DNA of 33,708 nucleotides from Bacteroidales bacterium (GTDB taxonomy: Bacteria; Bacteroidota; Bacteroidia; Bacteroidales; F082): NCBI GenBank assembly GCA_017548125.1, contig JAFYNK010000080.1, positions 1-33,708 of the forward strand, in the 5' to 3' direction. The notes beneath the pieces are model-generated. The model saw only the letters and a program-made list of their open reading frames with translations. It did not search any database and was not told where the DNA came from. Each line of letters opens with the position of its first letter. The first letter of the stretch is position 1. Both the position numbers and the translations under genes were made by a program. Shown one piece after another: positions 9,766 through 28,532 of the stretch.

Positions 9766-9855
9766 TGGAGTAATGGGGTAATGAAGTAAACTGCATCACT
9801 ACATTACTACATTACTACATTACTACATTACTACATTACTACATCACTGTATCAC
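9754..9855. repeat. Inverted pair of 8-bp repeat arrays
   Basis: The left half is four units GTAATGGA/GTAATGGG/GTAATGAA (9754-9785). The right half is five perfect TACATTAC units (9800-9839) plus two degenerate ones. The right unit read backwards is GTAATGTA, so the halves are inverted relative to each other and could form a long imperfect hairpin. The array supplies the end of prmC on the plus strand and the end of the convergent membrane-protein gene on the minus strand. Confidence 0.85.
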
Positions 9856-10314
9856 TGTATTATTTTCTTCCATTGCGGTTTTTATTGCATTTAAAAGCCG
9901 GTTACAATCTTCCTTTTTAACTGAAGAATCCTTCCTTGACAGATAAAAATAAGTCTTATCATTTTCAACATAAACACCTTTTACAAAAAAAGAAATCAAT
10001 CCAAACATAAACACCGATAAAAGAAACGCAACAACGAAACAAATAGCAGTTTCAGTAAATTCTACAGAATTACCTTTATTTAATTCCGACAAAATATTAC
10101 CCACCACAACACCAAACGACACGAACAATGCATAAAACAAACCGTTTTTTAATATCGGTCTGATTCCAGGTCTTCTTGAAATCTTTGTAATAGATTTTAA
10201 CGGAATTGTCTTCTTTTTATCTTTTCTATAATTTTTACGATATTCTATGCAAGTGTCGGAAACCACTACTCTTTCACCTGATTTCAATGTTTCATCGTAA
10301 TAAACTTTGCTCAT
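9844..10314 (-). CDS. Small membrane protein, paralogue of the next gene
   Basis: A 156-residue protein of unknown function. The start MSKVYYDETL at 10314 is chosen because the upstream paralogue starts with the same residues; an in-frame ATG at 10350 would add 12 residues that overlap the neighbouring gene. After a charged N-terminal strand-rich part come two membrane segments (about 70-90 and 98-120), then a C-terminal part ending AMEENNTVIQ. The layout resembles bacterial PH-like membrane domains, but this is a guess. The final codons lie in the short tandem repeat. Confidence 0.7.
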   Translation of the reverse strand: MSKVYYDETLKSGERVVVSDTCIEYRKNYRKDKKKTIPLKSITKISRRPGIRPILKNGLFYALFVSFGVVVGNILSELNKGNSVEFTETAICFVVAFLLSVFMFGLISFFVKGVYVENDKTYFYLSRKDSSVKKEDCNRLLNAIKTAMEENNTVIQ

Positions 10315-10346
10315 AATTTTATTTTTTAGTAATGGGGCAAACTGCT

Positions 10347-10781
10347 TCACTGCATCACCGTATTATTTTCTTCCATTGCCTTAGCTATTGCACCCATAAG
10401 CAATTTAGGATCATTTTCTTTATCTTTAAATGATTTTCTTTTGATACAAATATCATAGCCCGAACTTGTACGGATAAATATAGCATAACGGGCATCAAAT
10501 ATCGGCGCAAACACTATTCCAAAGCTAACTAACAACAGAGAAATAGAGCCGACCATAAAACCTATTACCCTCAAAATCAAACACACTGTAACTAATATAC
10601 AAGATACAGCTCTCCATATCTCATACCTTGTATTATTATTCGCACCAACCGTAACATTATCAATAGATTTAAGGAGAATAATCTGATCTACAATTTTTCC
10701 ATTTGTGTACTTCACATACGAATCAGTAACTAAAACGGATTCGCCATTTTTCAATGTCTCATCGTAATAAACTTTACTCAT
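10347..10781 (-). CDS. Small membrane protein, paralogue of the previous gene
   Basis: A 144-residue protein sharing MSKVYYDETLK at the N-terminus, the pattern LKSI about 40 residues in, two membrane segments, and AMEENNTVMQ at the C-terminus with the gene just downstream. The two thus form a tandem duplication that has diverged in the middle. No enzymatic motif is visible. The spacing between the two genes is 32 bp, so they are probably cotranscribed. As in its partner, the last codons are encoded by a degenerate copy of the repeat family. Confidence 0.7.
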   Translation of the reverse strand: MSKVYYDETLKNGESVLVTDSYVKYTNGKIVDQIILLKSIDNVTVGANNNTRYEIWRAVSCILVTVCLILRVIGFMVGSISLLLVSFGIVFAPIFDARYAIFIRTSSGYDICIKRKSFKDKENDPKLLMGAIAKAMEENNTVMQ

Positions 10782-10799: not shown

Positions 10800-10933
10800 A
10801 ATGGAGTAATTTAGTAATGGAGTAATTTAGTAATGAGGCAACTTCATCACTACATTACTTCATCACTACATTACTTCATCACTACATTACTTCATTACTA
10901 CATTACTTCATCACTACATTACTTCATCACTAC
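10800..10933. repeat. Inverted arrays of 16-bp tandem repeats
   Basis: Left: two exact 16-bp units AATGGAGTAATTTAGT (10800-10831). Right: units TTCATCACTACATTAC at 10843, 10859, 10875, 10891 (one variant base) and 10907, with a partial sixth to 10933. The right unit reversed resembles the left one, so the block is again an inverted pair. It separates the start of the membrane-protein pair from rnpB. Confidence 0.9.
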
Positions 10934-10984
10934 AAATATAAAAAAACTTTAGTCTTTTACCATTAGTCTTTTGACTTTTTTTCG

Positions 10985-14499: not shown

Positions 14500-16191
14500 A
14501 TGAAGAAGATAAATATTTTCGTTGTTTTGACATTGCTTTTCACAAGCACATTATTGAATGCGCAGTCGCACAATGAAGAAGTAACAATCGAGGGCTCATA
14601 CATACCTAAGATTCAGAAATCTGAGCGTTTGATCAAGACACCGGAGATGCCTAAACGCGAGTTCAACACACCTGATTACAAAGTCAGCACACAAGACTTT
14701 TTCTATAATTATAAAGTCGAGCTGGAACCAATCAGTCCTTTACAATATACTCATAATCAAAAACAAAAAATTGCGAACAATTTCATCAAGGCTGGTTTTG
14801 GAACAAGATTATCGCCAGATTTTCTATTCCGCCATTACTCCGACTTATCAAACAAGACAAGCCTCGGAATAGGCTTAATGCATAACTCCACATGGCTCGA
14901 CATGAAAGGCTATGCGAATTCCAAATACATGAACAACGCCTTCAACATCTCAATGAGCAACCGTTTCTCAGGATTTCAACTTCATTCATATATCGACTAT
15001 CATTATGATATGTACAATTTGAGTCAAGACACTTTGAACTATGATTTGGAAAACAATATTGACAGCAAAAGAAACATTCATTCATTGAATGTCAAGCTGT
15101 TAGCCAACAACAACCAAAGCAGTTTCAAATCATTATACGATGAGTTTTTATTAGATTATTCATATTCAGGCATACAAGACGGCATACAAGAAAACCTTTT
15201 GAAACTCAAAGCACATCTAGAACACTCAAACTCATGGCTCAAAAAAAGCAGCGAGATACAAACATTGGCTATTGACGTCAATGCCGACATCGACAATATC
15301 AACCATAGCCTGTTCTTGATTTCCGCAAATCCTTACCTCTCTTTGAATGGAGAATACTACAACCTTCACCTCGGTTTTCGCGCAGATGCCAAGACTAACA
15401 GCACTAGCAAAGGCGGTATTTACCCAGACATCAAAGGAAGCTTATATCTCTTCAAGAGAAACTTCGAGCTTTACGCAGGACTCGGCGGAGAGACAAAAAT
15501 CAATACGTTAAAAGAGATACTCGCAGAAAATCCTTTCATAGTAAGCGACTTAACAAATTTAGGCGAGTTTGACTACGAAAAGACATGGATTTCATTCCAA
15601 GGAGGATTGAAATTCAAGGCTATGAATATGGTGAACGGACACATCGGAGTGAGATACAGAATAATAGACAACAAAGTATTTTATGTAAGCTCAACGACAC
15701 AGCCAGGAGCTTTCGACATCGTTTTGAACAACTGCAATGTATTTAATTTCAACGCCGATATACATGTAAAAATCAATGACGAGATAAAAGTAGTCGGTGA
15801 TTTCGCATACAACATTTATGATTTCATTAAAGCATACAACAAGACACATAATACAGACGATGTCCCTAGCACAATATTACACGCATGGTATATGCCAAAA
15901 GTAGAATTCACTTTAAAAGGAGTTTACAAATTAGATCAGAACTGGAACTTCAACATAGCAACATATTTTGAAGGCAAGCGTTATGCTTTGACTGACATCT
16001 ACAGCTATGTTGGAATCAAAGAGCTCAAGCCTTTCGCCGACATTCAATTAGGATGCGACTACAATCTCAACGAAAGCATTTCATTCTATGCAGAGATAAA
16101 GAATTTGATCCACAACAAATATCAGATGTACTACGGTTATCCAAGCTACGGATTCCAGATGTTTTTAGGATTTAAATACAGGTTTTTGTAG
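14500..16191 (+). CDS. Outer-membrane beta-barrel protein (TonB-receptor-like)
   Basis: A 563-residue predicted outer-membrane protein. A signal peptide (about 1-22, ending LLNAQ) is followed by a short region and then alternating hydrophobic strands typical of a barrel, for example KTSLGIGLMHNSTWLDMKGY and NISMSNRFSGFQLHSYIDYH. The C-terminal strand GFQMFLGFKYRFL has the aromatic pattern recognised by the BAM machinery. There is no plug domain and no recognisable TonB box, so it resembles the barrel part only; it may be a porin-like or assembly protein. AAGGAG at 14485-14490, 9 bases before the ATG, is a strong ribosome site, rare in this window. Its last 40 bases are duplicated downstream of the next gene. 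Confidence 0.75.
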   Translation: MKKINIFVVLTLLFTSTLLNAQSHNEEVTIEGSYIPKIQKSERLIKTPEMPKREFNTPDYKVSTQDFFYNYKVELEPISPLQYTHNQKQKIANNFIKAGFGTRLSPDFLFRHYSDLSNKTSLGIGLMHNSTWLDMKGYANSKYMNNAFNISMSNRFSGFQLHSYIDYHYDMYNLSQDTLNYDLENNIDSKRNIHSLNVKLLANNNQSSFKSLYDEFLLDYSYSGIQDGIQENLLKLKAHLEHSNSWLKKSSEIQTLAIDVNADIDNINHSLFLISANPYLSLNGEYYNLHLGFRADAKTNSTSKGGIYPDIKGSLYLFKRNFELYAGLGGETKINTLKEILAENPFIVSDLTNLGEFDYEKTWISFQGGLKFKAMNMVNGHIGVRYRIIDNKVFYVSSTTQPGAFDIVLNNCNVFNFNADIHVKINDEIKVVGDFAYNIYDFIKAYNKTHNTDDVPSTILHAWYMPKVEFTLKGVYKLDQNWNFNIATYFEGKRYALTDIYSYVGIKELKPFADIQLGCDYNLNESISFYAEIKNLIHNKYQMYYGYPSYGFQMFLGFKYRFL

Positions 16192-16202
16192 AGAGAAAAA
16201 AA
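16152..16202. repeat. 51-bp direct repeat, copy 1
   Basis: An exact 51-bp sequence that includes the last 13 codons and stop of the beta-barrel gene and the following GAGAG-A run. An identical copy lies 1335 bp further on, after the ATPase gene. Confidence 0.95.
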
Positions 16203-16254
16203 ATCTTTCACCCTTTGTTGTTAGTTTTTAACTTACAAATTTAAAATACAACTT

Positions 16255-16262
16255 TAAATTTG
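16255..16262 (+). promoter_or_regulatory. -7 element of the ATPase gene
   Basis: TAAATTTG ends 8 bases before the ATG at 16271; TTA sits where TTG is expected 19 bases upstream. It lies inside the inserted unit, so the gene brought its own promoter. Confidence 0.5.
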
Positions 16263-16270
16263 CCCAAAAT

Positions 16271-17473
16271 ATGAATAATCAATTGTTCGACAGAGAATTA
16301 TTAGATTCTATTAATAATGCTTTTCGATATTTTTCTGTACTGACGCTTACAGGGCCGAGACAATCAGGTAAGACAACGCTATGCAGGAAACTGTTTGCAG
16401 ATCTGCCATATTATAACTTTGAGGACATATCAACACTTTCAGCATTTCAGCAAGATCCAAAATCATTTCTAACGAAACATGAAGATGGAATGATTATAGA
16501 TGAGGCGCAGCGATTCCCAGATATTTTTTCTTATTTGCAAGTGCTAATTGACGAACAAAACTTCACAGAAAATAAAAAAAGAAAATTTATTATTACAGGC
16601 AGTGCAAATTTCTCATTGATGCAGAAAGCAACACAATCCATGGCAGGGAGAACAGCCGTAATGACATTGCTACCATTATCGACACAAGAAATCGACACCA
16701 TTTATCCTGACGCAAAAACCGATGTCCGCATTCTACGTGGCGGTTATCCTGCGGTTTGGAAAACAAATGATGAAGGACGCGGCTATTTGCTCAGCAATTA
16801 TTACACCACATACGTCGAACGTGATTTGCGCAGTTTGATAAACATCAAAGACCTCACTCAGTTTAACACATTCATCAGACTTTGCGCAGGACGCATAGGC
16901 TCAGAATGCAACGCATCAGCACTATCTGTAGAGGTAGGAGTCAGCGTCCCAACCATTCAGTCATGGCTTAGCATCCTTGAGGCATCTTATATAATATATC
17001 GTTTACATCCATATCATGCAAACATTGGCAAACGACTTACCAAAACACCAAAATTATATTTTTACGACACAGGCTTGGCAGCATGGTTAATGGGCATAAA
17101 CACTGAAGAGCAACTAGCAGTACATCCTCAGCGCGGAAACCTATTTGAAAACATGGTCATTAATGACTTACAAAAATATTATCTCAACAAAGCCGAACGT
17201 GCAGAATTGTTTTTCTACAGAGACAAAGGACAACACGAAGTCGATTTACTCCGAATGAATCCAGATGGAAGTCTGCACGCATACGAGATAAAATCATCCA
17301 TGACATATAGAAGCGACTATTTTGATGGTTTACATTACTTACAAAAACTAATCAAAGAACGTATTGCATCAAGCACGCTATTATATGACGGCACGCAAGA
17401 ATCTATTCAGCAGTATGATTCTTATTGCAATTACCGAAATTTACCAGAGCAAATTAAAGCATCAAACAAATAA
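16271..17473 (+). CDS. AAA+ ATPase with C-terminal DUF4143
   Basis: A 400-residue protein of the widespread AAA_14/DUF4143 family. Walker A is GPRQSGKTT (28-36) and Walker B GMIIDEAQR (73-81). A winged-helix-like segment near 215-235 (ALSVEVGVSVPTIQSWLSIL) is followed by DUF4143 with LYFYDTGLAAWLMG, and FFYRDKGQHEVDLL ... AYEIKSS resembles a PD-(D/E)XK nuclease core. The family is often present in many copies in Bacteroidales genomes and its role is unknown; links to defence or toxin-antitoxin function are speculative. The gene is complete, has its own promoter, and is bounded by a 51-bp direct repeat. Confidence 0.88.
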   Translation: MNNQLFDRELLDSINNAFRYFSVLTLTGPRQSGKTTLCRKLFADLPYYNFEDISTLSAFQQDPKSFLTKHEDGMIIDEAQRFPDIFSYLQVLIDEQNFTENKKRKFIITGSANFSLMQKATQSMAGRTAVMTLLPLSTQEIDTIYPDAKTDVRILRGGYPAVWKTNDEGRGYLLSNYYTTYVERDLRSLINIKDLTQFNTFIRLCAGRIGSECNASALSVEVGVSVPTIQSWLSILEASYIIYRLHPYHANIGKRLTKTPKLYFYDTGLAAWLMGINTEEQLAVHPQRGNLFENMVINDLQKYYLNKAERAELFFYRDKGQHEVDLLRMNPDGSLHAYEIKSSMTYRSDYFDGLHYLQKLIKERIASSTLLYDGTQESIQQYDSYCNYRNLPEQIKASNK

Positions 17474-17486
17474 TTCGATGTATCTT

Positions 17487-17537
17487 ATTCCAGATGTTTT
17501 TAGGATTTAAATACAGGTTTTTGTAGAGAGAAAAAAA
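17487..17537. repeat. 51-bp direct repeat, copy 2
   Basis: Identical over 51 bases to 16152-16202. Here the sequence is non-coding: a relic of the beta-barrel gene end lying between the ATPase gene and the terminator before gyrB. Confidence 0.95.
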
Positions 17538-17550
17538 GATAATTTTTTAA

Positions 17551-19614
<2,064 letters not shown>

Positions 19615-24304: not shown

Positions 24305-24904
24305 ATGGCAATAAAATTTCAATATAACAAAACATCGCTTCAACAACTGGAGAAACAGTTGAAGATACGAATGCGCACGCTGCCGACAATAAAAAGCAAA
24401 GAGTCGGCTCTGCGCCTCGAGGTGAAACGCTCCAAAGAAAAAGTCGAGGAGTTTGACGAGAAACTCGAGAGTATCTTGCAACAGTCAGGCGACATCCTAC
24501 GCTTATGGGGCGAGTTCAAGCCCGACCTCATCAGCGTGGAAGACGTGAAGTTCAGCATCAAGAAAATCGCCGGCGTCAACACTCCTGTGTATGAAGGAGC
24601 GACTTATAAGGTAAAGGAATTCAGCGTATTCAATATGCCATCATGGATTCTAGATGGATTAGAATATATGAAGTCGCTAATCGACATCACATTGGAACGC
24701 GAATTCTGGGTCCGTAAAATGGAACTGCTCAGCAAGGCAAGAAAGAAGACAACACAAAAAGTAAACCTTTATGAAAAGGTTCAGATACCTGGCTTCGAAA
24801 ACGCCATCCGTAAAATAAAACGCGTTATGGAAGACGAAGAAAACCTCGCTAAAGCAGCACAAAAGATAGTAAAAACGCGTCAAGAAAAGGAGGTAGCATC
24901 ATGA
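24305..24904 (+). CDS. atpD: V-type ATP synthase subunit D
   Basis: A 199-residue central-stalk subunit, an antiparallel coiled coil that turns inside the A3B3 head. KTSLQQLEKQLKIRMRTLP and LKS-like heptads at the N-terminus and KIKRVMEDEENLAKAAQKIVK at the C-terminus form the two long helices. The stop overlaps the ATG of subunit I as ATGA. The strong ribosome site AAGGAGG (24887-24893) for subunit I lies within the end of this gene. Confidence 0.92.
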   Translation: MAIKFQYNKTSLQQLEKQLKIRMRTLPTIKSKESALRLEVKRSKEKVEEFDEKLESILQQSGDILRLWGEFKPDLISVEDVKFSIKKIAGVNTPVYEGATYKVKEFSVFNMPSWILDGLEYMKSLIDITLEREFWVRKMELLSKARKKTTQKVNLYEKVQIPGFENAIRKIKRVMEDEENLAKAAQKIVKTRQEKEVAS

Positions 24905-26715
24905 TTACACCTATGACAAAATTGACGATGTTAATTTATCATCGCGATTACAAACAATTCCTCATCGACCTTCGCGAACACGGCGTCGTTCACATTCATG
25001 CAAAGAAACAGACTCTGCAAGATGAAGTCATGAAGGCTAAGTTGGCTGAGATGAAGCATGTTTCTAATACGATAAAATTATTAGAGAAAGACTACAAGAC
25101 TACAAGACTACAAGACTACAAGTCTATAGACTTGAAAAATGCCGAGTTGCTTGCTTTCATCGATAGTAAGTTTGCAGAAATTGATTCCATACAACAACAG
25201 ATTGTTTCTCTACAGAAAGATGATAACGTCTATAATGTTTGGGGCAACTTCCCTGAAGAAGAAATCAAGAAAATACAAAGCAATAACTGGGACTTGAGAT
25301 TCTTCAGCGTGCCTAACAACAAATATGACGAGAAATGGGAACAGGAATTCAACGCTTTCTTGATTAACGAAATATCTGGCTTCAAATATTTCACCACACT
25401 CACCGCTAAAGACAAAGACGTCAACATCGATGCTGAGAAATATCACTTTCCTTCATTGTCAAAGTCAGAGATAACTGCTCAGATTGAAGAATTGAAGAAC
25501 AAGTTGGAATCAACAAGACAATATCTCAGAGAAGTCTCAGCAGATGCCATAGCAAAACTCAACGAATATAAGAGACTTGTCACCAATGACGCTAACTTTT
25601 ATAAAGTGAGTGAGGCTGCCGACAAATTAGCCGACGACAAAATCATGATGTTAGAAGGCTGGGTTCCTACTGAAATAGAAAAAGACACAATAGCATGGCT
25701 CGAAGACAGAGATATTTATTTCGAAGCTAAAGAGCCAGAGAAAAATGTCGATAATCCTCCTATCAAACTCAAGAACCGACGTTTCGCGAGATTATTCGAG
25801 ATGATTGGCAATATGTATTCAATCCCGACATATTGGGAATTGGATATGACACCATTCTTCGCTCCTTTCTTCGTGATGTTCTTCGGTTTCTGTATGGGCG
25901 ACCTCGGTTACGGCGCATTGATTTGCATCATCACATTAGCATTGATATTAAGCAAGAAACTCAAAGGCATGAGCGACATCTTATGGCTCGGTTTCTTCTT
26001 AGGATTCGGTACTGTCATCATGGGAACCATCAGCGGCACCTTCTTCGGCGTTCCGTTGTTAGAAGTTGAGGGCATCCCTATCGTAGATAAACTCAAAGGT
26101 ATCATGTTCCAACCTGATGGCATCTATTCAGCATTCTATGTATCATTGATAATAGGTGTGTTCCAGATTTTATTTGGTATGTGCTTGAAGATCATCAACC
26201 AGATAAAACTCTTCGGATTCGGCGCAGCAGTATCGACAATAGGATGGGTAATCTTATTACTCGGCGGCATCGTCACATTCCTCATCGATGGCATTGGCAT
26301 TCCATTCTACGCATGTATGGGTGTCGGCGCAGTCCTCATCTATTTATTGAACGGTCCGCTCAATTCATTTGTAGCGCCTTTGAAAAACATCGGTTCTGGA
26401 TTGTGGGACACTTACAACATGGCAACAGGTCTCTTAGGCGACGTCCTTTCATACATCAGATTGTTCGCCTTAGGTTTGTCAGGTTCTATCTTAGGCTTAG
26501 TATTTAACGACTTAGCAATGAATATGAAACCAGACATCCCAGTCCTTGGCACCATAGTAATGCTCTTGATATTAGTTTTCGGTCACACCATGAACATCGC
26601 ATTGTCAGCATTAAGTGCTTTCGTTCACCCAATGCGTTTGACATTCGTTGAGTTCTACAAAAACTCAGGATTCGTTGGTGGAGCAAAACAATATGAACCG
26701 TTTAAGAAAAATTAA
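24901..26715 (+). CDS. atpI: V-type ATP synthase subunit I
   Basis: A 604-residue membrane stator subunit (eukaryotic subunit a). Residues 1 to about 310 form a soluble coiled-coil arm; the rest holds about seven to eight membrane helices, including PTYWELDMTPFFAPFFVMFF and GDVLSYIRLFALGLSGS, which carries the conserved Arg of the ion half-channel. AAGGAGG lies 7 bases before the ATG, and the start overlaps the subunit D stop, so translation is coupled. Odd: residues about 64-75 (KDYKTTRLQDYK) are encoded by four perfect copies of an 8-bp repeat found in intergenic DNA of this window. Losing or gaining one copy would break the frame early. Confidence 0.94.
   Translation: MITPMTKLTMLIYHRDYKQFLIDLREHGVVHIHAKKQTLQDEVMKAKLAEMKHVSNTIKLLEKDYKTTRLQDYKSIDLKNAELLAFIDSKFAEIDSIQQQIVSLQKDDNVYNVWGNFPEEEIKKIQSNNWDLRFFSVPNNKYDEKWEQEFNAFLINEISGFKYFTTLTAKDKDVNIDAEKYHFPSLSKSEITAQIEELKNKLESTRQYLREVSADAIAKLNEYKRLVTNDANFYKVSEAADKLADDKIMMLEGWVPTEIEKDTIAWLEDRDIYFEAKEPEKNVDNPPIKLKNRRFARLFEMIGNMYSIPTYWELDMTPFFAPFFVMFFGFCMGDLGYGALICIITLALILSKKLKGMSDILWLGFFLGFGTVIMGTISGTFFGVPLLEVEGIPIVDKLKGIMFQPDGIYSAFYVSLIIGVFQILFGMCLKIINQIKLFGFGAAVSTIGWVILLLGGIVTFLIDGIGIPFYACMGVGAVLIYLLNGPLNSFVAPLKNIGSGLWDTYNMATGLLGDVLSYIRLFALGLSGSILGLVFNDLAMNMKPDIPVLGTIVMLLILVFGHTMNIALSALSAFVHPMRLTFVEFYKNSGFVGGAKQYEPFKKN
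25091..25122. repeat. 8-bp tandem repeat inside subunit I
   Basis: Four perfect copies of ACTACAAG, followed by a related TCTATAGACTTG. The same unit occurs in the intergenic arrays at 667-698, 27281-27320 and 33484-33507. Confidence 0.92.
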
Positions 26716-27280: not shown

Positions 27281-27320
27281 AAGACTACAAGTCAACAAGA
27301 CTACAAGACCACAAGACTAC
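27281..27320. repeat. 8-bp tandem repeats after the V-ATPase operon
   Basis: Five 8-bp units: AAGACTAC, AAGTCAAC, AAGACTAC, AAGACCAC, AAGACTAC. They begin two bases after the subunit K stop codon and end just before the terminator. Confidence 0.9.
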
Positions 27321-27325
27321 AAGTG

Positions 27326-27463: not shown

Positions 27464-28112
27464 ATGAAAAAAAGCAAAACTCATGATCCAAAAGAAATTT
27501 CTTTTGAATCAAATCAAGAAAACATCATTACATCCGAATACAAAAATTGGATTGTAGATTTGAAGCTTCGTATCCGTCAAAGTCAGATTAAAGCTGCAGT
27601 AAAAGTCAACACTGAATTGCTCAGACTCTATTGGCAGATGGGAAGCGAGATTGTTGAAAAACAGAAGAACGCTCATTGGGGCGACGGATTCTTAAAACAA
27701 CTCAGCAATGACCTCATGTCAGATTTTCCTGATATGAAAGGGTTTTCTTATAGAAATTTAAGAGCCATCAAACAATGGTTTTTGTTTTATTATGAATCAT
27801 TTATAAAATGGCAACAAGCTGCTGCTATTTTAGAAGACACATTTCTTTCCATTCCATGGGGGGCACCATCTCTTGATAATGCAACGCTGCAAAGACATCA
27901 ACAAGGCTGTCTTCTATATACAGCAGACTCTAGAGAACAACTGGAGCAGAAACGTATTGGACTGGCAAATTGACTCTAATCTAAAAGATCTGCAACGCAG
28001 TCTCGAAGACAACATCTATCGTTTTTTGCTAGAACTTCAGATCTTATCGTATCTATCCATATTATTTTACTACATCACTCCATTACTACATTACTACAAA
28101 AAAGTCACGTAG
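27464..28112 (+). pseudogene. DUF1016 (YhcG-type) protein, frameshifted and truncated
   Basis: The first 130 codons encode a typical DUF1016 N-terminal domain (VDLKLRIRQSQIKAAVKVN, LLRLYWQMGSEI, FSYRNLRAIKQW). At a run of six G (27858-27863) the frame changes: removing one G would restore IPWGHHLLIMQRCKDINKA and then FYIQQTLENNWSRNVLDWQI in the next frame, as in intact family members. After IDSNL the gene appears to lose an internal stretch, resumes with SLEDNIYRFLLEL, and stops at 28112 without the PD-(D/E)XK nuclease domain. The last part runs through an 8-bp repeat array. It is therefore a decayed gene even if the frameshift were a sequencing error. Confidence 0.85.
28068..28099. repeat. 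8-bp tandem repeats at the truncated end of DUF1016
   Basis: Units TACTACAT, CACTCCAT, TACTACAT, TACTACAA, related to the TACATTAC units at 9800-9855. They mark the point where the DUF1016 homology ends. Confidence 0.8.
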
Positions 28113-28316
28113 TGACGACAGTTCCCAGGCAGGCGGTGAAGTGCGAAGCACGAAACCCCTGCATTCATGACCAGAATGATATTAAAAGTGCTGAAGGCAC
28201 GACAGAGTTTTTTCTGTCGTGCCTTCAGCACTTTGATTAATTTGGCAAATCTTCTTTGCAGGGATTCCGCACTACGTGCTTCATCACCTGCCTGGGAACT
28301 ACCGTTCCTTCGGAAC
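28104..28316. repeat. Compound palindromic element with central 22-bp hairpin
   Basis: Two 43-bp arms (28121-28163 and 28257-28299) are inverted relative to each other with 34 of 43 positions matching. Between them is a perfect 22-bp stem (28185-28206 with 28213-28234) around GTTTTT. Outside the arms are 5-bp hairpins: GTCAC-GTA-GTGAC (28104-28116) on the left and GTTCC-TTC-GGAAC (28304-28316) on the right. Inside each arm is another hairpin, GTGC-GAA-GCAC on the left and GCAC-TAC-GTGC on the right. No open frame explains it. It could be a non-autonomous mobile element, a structured RNA or a very elaborate terminator. Confidence 0.8.
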
Positions 28317-28532
28317 TTCTGAAAAACTCCTCAAATCCTAACTTCTAATTCTTAACTCAAAAGACGCATCAACGACATATTGTTCATTTTTTATGTGTCG
28401 TGTGACACGTATCACCTTGCATCATTCATTCCGTTTCGCTTGCTTCGTTCGTCCCTCACTCGCTTGCTTCACTCCATCAATGACGCTCGGTTTTTTAGCT
28501 TAGGACAAATTTATGGAATGTAATTGTAGTTC
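28317..28532. other. Intergenic region without a recognisable gene
   Basis: Begins with repeat-like words (CCTCAAATCCTAACTTCTAATTC). It contains a small palindrome GTGTC-GTGT-GACAC (28395-28408) and a pyrimidine-rich stretch in which CGCTTGCTTC occurs twice (about 28436-28475). The latter can pair weakly with nothing nearby. I see no protein or RNA gene. Confidence 0.5.

Follow-up and report, generated by a model that had tools for sequence, protein, structure and literature searches.

A DUF4143 ATPase gene bounded by copies of its neighbour's 3′ end in a Bacteroidales genome

The 33,708-nt stretch of DNA analysed here (positions 1 to 33,708 of the forward strand of contig JAFYNK010000080.1, assembly GCA_017548125.1, from a Bacteroidales bacterium of the lineage F082; 'the window' below) holds a gene for an AAA+/DUF4143 ATPase that lies between two copies of the end of the gene before it. 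The copies, at 16152–16202 and 17487–17537, are identical over 51/51 bp and lie 1335 bp apart, as a preliminary description of this DNA had claimed and as a repeat search of the window, rechecked, confirmed; an exact, non-simple 51-mer within 33.7 kb is judged far to exceed what chance would produce. The left copy comprises the final 40 nt, stop codon included, of an intact outer-membrane beta-barrel gene (14500–16191; this and all features in this paragraph are on the forward strand) plus the 11 nt that follow, which bears out the earlier claim that the end of the joined gene was duplicated. The right copy, where no open reading frame (ORF) of ≥60 aa was assigned, is a non-coding relic of that 3′ end. 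Between the copies the sole ORF of ≥100 aa (16271–17473, 400 aa) matches AAA_14 (PF13173) and DUF4143 (PF13635) in Pfam, again as first described, and the relic begins 13 nt past its stop codon. The inserted unit of 1335 bp can be drawn as 16203–17537 or, equivalently, as 16152–17486. The account that we favour, with about even confidence, is that this unit arrived as a circularised foreign piece, made up of the ATPase gene and a copy of the barrel-gene end, and was integrated by a single crossover in the shared end.

Relatives of the host were found without the ATPase gene at this site. A search for the barrel protein covered 60 genomes, one per species and that of the window among them, and matched it in 51; 34 other genomes of the same genus had a match, and 29 loci (L009–L037) were compared, with flanks of up to 1.5 kb. 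Within those flanks a DUF4143 gene lies beside the barrel gene in 0/29 loci, the reverse of an ATPase carried here by all relatives, and gyrB follows the barrel gene in 25/29. The empty site sought in the barrel–gyrB interval could be aligned in L009, which has a single barrel end and then a hairpin like that of the window. In the other four loci the stretch compared showed no gyrB and holds a 408-aa gene (L026), a lone 308-aa gene (L029), a 177-aa ORF (L020) or a reverse-strand 467-aa ORF (L037); behind the lone gene of L029 no copy of the barrel end was found in the stretch examined.

The same site is also filled elsewhere. A scan of genome contigs for relatives of the ATPase gave 32 loci, three of which (L108, L109 and L110) carry, at the same barrel end, an ATPase 86% identical to that of the window; in the rest (L111–L139), neither the barrel gene nor gyrB was matched in the stretches examined. 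A single metagenome-assembled genome (MAG; RGIG4154, roe deer) supplies both L108 and L109, on two contigs, while L110 belongs to a separate MAG, SIG104. The right-hand copy of the barrel tip matches the left at 32/32 positions in L108 and 30/32 in L110, and in both loci the ATPase gene is followed by a further inserted gene (a 565-aa gene; a PIF1-like helicase) and then by a gyrB hairpin. The preliminary description had spoken of a recent insertion: insertion is upheld by the 29 relatives that lack the DUF4143 gene, but 'recent' is not, since two other species are occupied at this site and a single late event oversimplifies the history.

The synonymous differences (pS) point the same way. Between the window and L108, pS is 0.72 for the ATPase gene, 0.75 for a TPR gene, 0.77 for the barrel gene and 0.54 for gyrB, whereas between L108 and L110 it is 0.18 for the ATPase gene against 0.54 for gyrB. 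Moreover, the final 33 nt of the barrel ends of L108 and L110 are identical (within 1 base of the 32-nt repeat), while the preceding 132 nt hold 21 differences. Because the ATPase genes are so much closer than gyrB and the barrel ends are identical only near the tip, the ATPase gene most simply moved between the L108 and L110 lineages at the barrel site, and the site most simply took up the gene, or took it up again by transfer, on more than one occasion. Unless they were homogenised, copies that are alike within each species do not go back to a single old insertion. Just such a history, a single ancestral insertion inherited vertically, with no present movement and with the copies kept identical by gene conversion, would account for a site common to the window, L108 and L110 and for a window–L108 ATPase divergence that resembles that of the neighbouring genes, and the shorter tail of L108 and L110 could be one deletion; the discordance between ATPase and gyrB in L108–L110, and the absence of the ATPase gene from 29/29 same-genus loci, make it rather improbable. 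Repeats of 32–51 bp also offer little length for conversion to act on again and again, and recombination between them would more often delete the unit.

Further single inserted genes lie in the barrel–gyrB interval of L108 (7200–9640) and L110 (1770–4540), so that the interval looks like an insertion hotspot. L108 and L109 share the same barrel–ATPase stretch, with identical printed junctions; the MAG either has the stretch twice or combines two strains in one bin.

Flanking repeats are a general feature of DUF4143 genes in this genus, as a search proposed at the outset revealed. PF13635 occurs in 57/60 same-genus genomes, with at least 50 scored matches in four of them, and across the phylum in 74/148 genomes, with at most 16 matches in any. 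The survey covered 100 fetched regions, the window and L108–L139, the regions being the best-scoring listed PF13635 matches, where possible away from contig ends, rather than a random sample. Each non-overlapping ORF of ≥100 aa was tested with 500-bp flanks at a repeat score of ≥20; duplicates, and genes whose flank was <500 bp, were excluded, which reduced 162 hits to 145 genes and 1368 ORFs to 1105, and the same rule was applied to control families. Direct repeats, 20–212 bp long, flanked 34/145 DUF4143 genes compared with 20/960 other genes in the same DNA (Fisher, 1e-18), and 27/119 compared with 17/801 when the window and L108–L139 were removed. Outside the genus, 4/28 DUF4143 loci had repeats scoring ≥18, two of which (L390 and L391) are alike and maybe reflect one event.

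The genus has dispersed repeats, and 16/34 of the DUF4143 repeats have further copies in the fetched DNA. As the cause of the excess they were rejected, the effect being reduced, not removed, when the count was confined to repeats that occur nowhere else in the fetched DNA (18/145 versus 11/960, p 5e-10). That the window's structure is itself a dispersed repeat or an assembly artefact is hardly credible: its repeat, too, is unique by this measure, and the same architecture in two other MAGs makes misassembly unlikely. An effect peculiar to DUF4143 was likewise rejected. Three other accessory families are also repeat-flanked, at a lower rate (PF09820 2/36, AlbA_2 1/24, Fic 3/31; 6/91 in total); the DUF4143 rate exceeds theirs 3.5-fold (p 6e-4), although the difference from Fic alone is not significant (p 0.096).

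Eleven of the 34 repeats were traced by hand to a neighbouring gene. Several of the remainder are palindromic and perhaps operators (L090, L092, L093, L095, L155, L158, L175 and L178). Palindrome-like flanks of 20–115 bp, close to the start and stop of DUF4143 or adjacent genes, were noted in L090, L092, L093, L095, L141, L142, L155, L158 and L175; these are possibly operators or element ends, a class apart from copied gene ends. Two other arrangements were seen in passing: in L113 (4400–7260) two different DUF4143 genes alternate, cassette-like, with three repeat copies of 53–61 bp (repeat-gene-repeat-gene-repeat) that hold a hairpin and a TTTG box, and in L079 (5848–6288) an ORF6N gene is flanked by a 97-bp repeat (92/97 identical), part of which resembles 28052–28090 of the window by eye.

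The resolved set comprises 11 hand-chosen loci in which the repeat, 32–113 bp long, is the end of a neighbouring gene. In eight the 3′ end of the upstream gene is copied (the window, L071, L077, L086, L108, L156, L157 and L192, the last three having acyl-CoA dehydrogenase, Card1-like and Dtd genes by Pfam name), and in three the downstream gene supplies the copy, by its 5′ end in L094 (an ETF gene) and by the 3′ ends of convergent genes in L098 and L199. The likeness to integration into a gene's 3′ end that had been suggested for the window does not survive this: the repeats vary by locus, 3/11 copy the start or end of a downstream gene, and, since they differ with the host gene and the unit encodes no recombinase (its one ORF of ≥100 aa is the AAA_14/DUF4143 gene, so that this part of the preliminary description is right), site-specific integration is rejected. 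Terminal inverted repeats of ≥20 nt were not found at the unit, shorter ones not having been searched for.

Two properties of the resolved copies are informative. In 10/10 3′-end loci the outer boundary of the duplication falls close to the host stop codon, at −11 to +11 nt, and differences between copies (11 loci, 9 with differences) are 22 synonymous to 4 non-synonymous where 21% synonymous would be expected, a count that leaves out L147 and L110 and becomes 24:9 with both included. A simple target-site duplication decaying in place is disfavoured by this synonymous excess. Allele-like differences, together with ends at the host stop codon, argue for homologous recombination between lineages on one side of the unit.

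Under the favoured account, a circularised fragment would carry the ATPase gene together with a copied barrel-gene end, and one crossover within the host-gene end would leave an intact host gene, the ATPase gene and then the relic, in that order. The relic would start where the two ends of the fragment had been joined, and the duplication would stop where homology between donor and recipient stops, usually near the host stop codon. The cuts may be supplied by the ATPase's own predicted nuclease. By way of the repeat, the resulting repeat-gene-repeat unit could exit and, in other strains, be taken up again at this site, which would keep both copies alike within each species. The footprint defines the boundaries of the unit and leads one to expect a circle whose junction can be specified, as well as an other-lineage allele in host-gene ends beside DUF4143 ATPases. 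A laboratory precedent is described in a study in Escherichia coli, where plasmid DNA supplied in linear form closed into circles that entered by a single crossover, and where 14 sequenced clones had duplications of 109–950 bp (PMC3240628); the product is of the same kind as that proposed here and supports a circle and a single crossover. Homology-facilitated illegitimate recombination (HFIR), in which a linear fragment recombines at one side only and no circle is formed, would yield the one homologous and one non-homologous junction observed; it is known in naturally competent bacteria and has been proposed for Vibrio effector-immunity arrays (PMC5361080). We nevertheless think it distinctly improbable, the same E. 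coli text reporting a duplication PCR product, ascribed to recircularised molecules, in 56/60 clones and an HFIR-like outcome in 4/60.

Several observations weigh against a circle integrated by single crossover. In the eight upstream-copy loci the ATPase-side junction lies between −24 and +15 nt from the ATPase stop codon, and right copies start ≤30 nt from that stop in 23/33 cases, compared with 7/25 for other repeat-flanked genes (p 7e-16 for the 23/33 against a uniform spread). This junction is non-random, and random fragment ends would not give such clustering. The copies in the window are identical, on which account the allele argument is silent about the window itself; the weak repeat of L147 shows the opposite trend (1:4), and the differences in L110, counted by hand, stand at 1:1. 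In L110, furthermore, the duplication extends past the stop codon, an identical tandem-repeat stretch coming after each copy. Donors with the ATPase gene beside the same host gene are required by the model; these are seen for the barrel site and not for dtd, the ATPase gene lying behind dtd in 0/29 dtd loci other than L192. Finally, later reshuffling of the left copy by ordinary recombination would likewise give synonymous differences.

Since the single-crossover model fails to explain a junction that hugs the ATPase stop, transposition by the protein itself is kept alive, and the properties of the protein are relevant here. It matches the PDC-S01 hidden Markov model of PADLOC (E 4e-103). Residues E323, D325, E339 and K341 are invariant in 36 sequences, and the same four in a set of 17. 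In the structure model (pLDDT 88) the C-terminal domain has a predicted helix-three strands-helix-strand core and matches Can2, Card1, Cdn1, Hjc and McrC, the best at E 2.5e-3 and none at E 0.001; no solved relative was found by sequence at E 0.01, and no PD-(D/E)XK entry is among the 50 VIA-align matches listed, which the ATPase domain fills. The C-terminal E-x-D...E-x-K domain is on this basis a predicted PD-(D/E)XK nuclease, and the protein, going by its sequence, a phage-defence candidate of the PDC-S01 type, common and unproven. Two papers, which describe its abundance and its transfer across domains, report that PDC-S01 ranks fourth among prokaryotic defences by frequency and that no individual locus is found more often in a set of bovine rumen genomes (PMC12988326, PMC13356809).

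In self-made transposition the ATPase-nuclease would make staggered nicks in the two target strands, tens of bases from each other; the single-ORF unit would be joined in, and fill-in would produce a long target duplication. The junction near the ATPase stop, the variable repeats (20–212 bp), the close subfamily members at other loci, the predicted PD-(D/E)XK domain and the excess over three other accessory families all fit this, and we regard it as unlikely yet the strongest challenge to the circle. It does not predict copy differences that are mostly synonymous, unlike those of a non-coding relic decaying in place, or duplications that mostly stop at the host stop codon; and lone AlbA_2 and Fic genes can carry the same footprint, by which token no DUF4143 function is required. 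More doubtful still is the general proposition that DUF4143/PDC-S01 genes are one-gene mobile elements whose protein cuts a host-gene end and inserts its own gene, promoter to stop, with a duplication of ~30–115 bases that leaves the host gene whole. If true, an AAA+ ATPase and a PD-(D/E)XK nuclease would by themselves make up a transposition system, which would explain the occurrence of at least 50 copies per genome.

The barrel protein has no Pfam match, and its matches to TonB-dependent receptors are weak and far under the cut-off. The promoter attributed to the ATPase gene is a weaker point of the preliminary description. A palindrome, CAAATTTAAA-7nt-TTTAAATTTG (16236–16262), a putative operator, stands before the start codon, and a palindrome-like box is kept there in 17/17 subfamily upstream regions inspected by eye (of 33 loci, the window included), a related box thus recurring in the subfamily at different loci; a TAnnTTTG box, present in 15/16 of the other inspected regions, is not intact in the window. 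Past the unit's right edge, on the forward strand, lie a hairpin, ATCGTGTAT/ATACACGAT (17561–17586), adjoined by a gyrB promoter-like TATCTTTG box (17595–17602), and gyrB itself (17647–19614, by Pfam), the native downstream neighbour. A similar hairpin stands before gyrB in L009, L108 and L110, and the suggestion that the likely original terminator of the barrel gene now lies beyond the unit therefore looks right.

Elsewhere in the window, tandem repeats of 8-bp period (ACTACATT / GACTACAA) occur at 9774–9872, 10817–10942, 25082–25128, 27283–27321 and 28052–28106; they are mostly intergenic, with one array inside the ORF at 24901–26715. A DUF1016_N gene at 27464–27973 encodes only 169 aa, apparently without the C-terminal nuclease part, and is followed by inverted repeats at 28102–28318. 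Two adjacent small ORFs at 9844–10781, whose start and end segments are 73–76% identical, represent an old tandem duplication.

Among known systems, the present case is by analogy one of insertion with long target duplication, with a different cargo. That mode has been described for restriction-modification genes (Nobusato et al. 2000, as quoted in the available parts of PMC1643837, PMC3031569, PMC3154945 and PMC4978471), where, as here, a long and variable direct repeat of the target flanks one or more genes of a defence type. Its hallmarks recur in the 51/51-bp repeat, in relatives without the insert and in repeats whose length and sequence vary with the host gene. The differences from those accounts, as far as their quoted parts go, are that the cargo here is a lone AAA_14/DUF4143 gene, with at least 50 matches in 4/60 genomes, that the junction lies near the ORF stop and that the copies act as host-gene alleles. 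Duplication of a homologous segment on both sides of foreign DNA is shared with single-crossover integration of recircularised DNA and with HFIR in E. coli, although the text available there concerns laboratory plasmids, 1 kb of homology and duplications of 109–950 bp (PMC3240628), against natural cases of 32–113 bp here. Elements placed in gene 3′ ends by an integrase differ in having a recombinase, and no common att core was found in the 11 resolved loci; DDE transposons and insertion sequences differ in that their duplication is short and fixed. Rpn/YhgA proteins, also PD-(D/E)XK nucleases and linked to RecA-independent horizontal transfer, belong to a different family, and additions of donor DNA made up <4% of recombinants in that study (PMC5350276). 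To the PDC-S01 candidates the likeness lies in the model match and in the fusion of an ATPase with a domain of the PD-(D/E)XK superfamily; the available parts of those accounts (PMC12988326, PMC13356809) describe no insertion footprint, and none for DUF4143 or PDC-S01 was found in the open-licence literature searched. What is new is the DUF4143 gene family as cargo and the ORF-trimmed unit, the mechanism itself being inferred. The comparison suggests that other lone defence-like genes, too, insert with a long target duplication, as restriction-modification genes do; most defence candidates like PDC-S01 await experimental proof, and the footprint makes the travel of such lone genes without a transposase testable.

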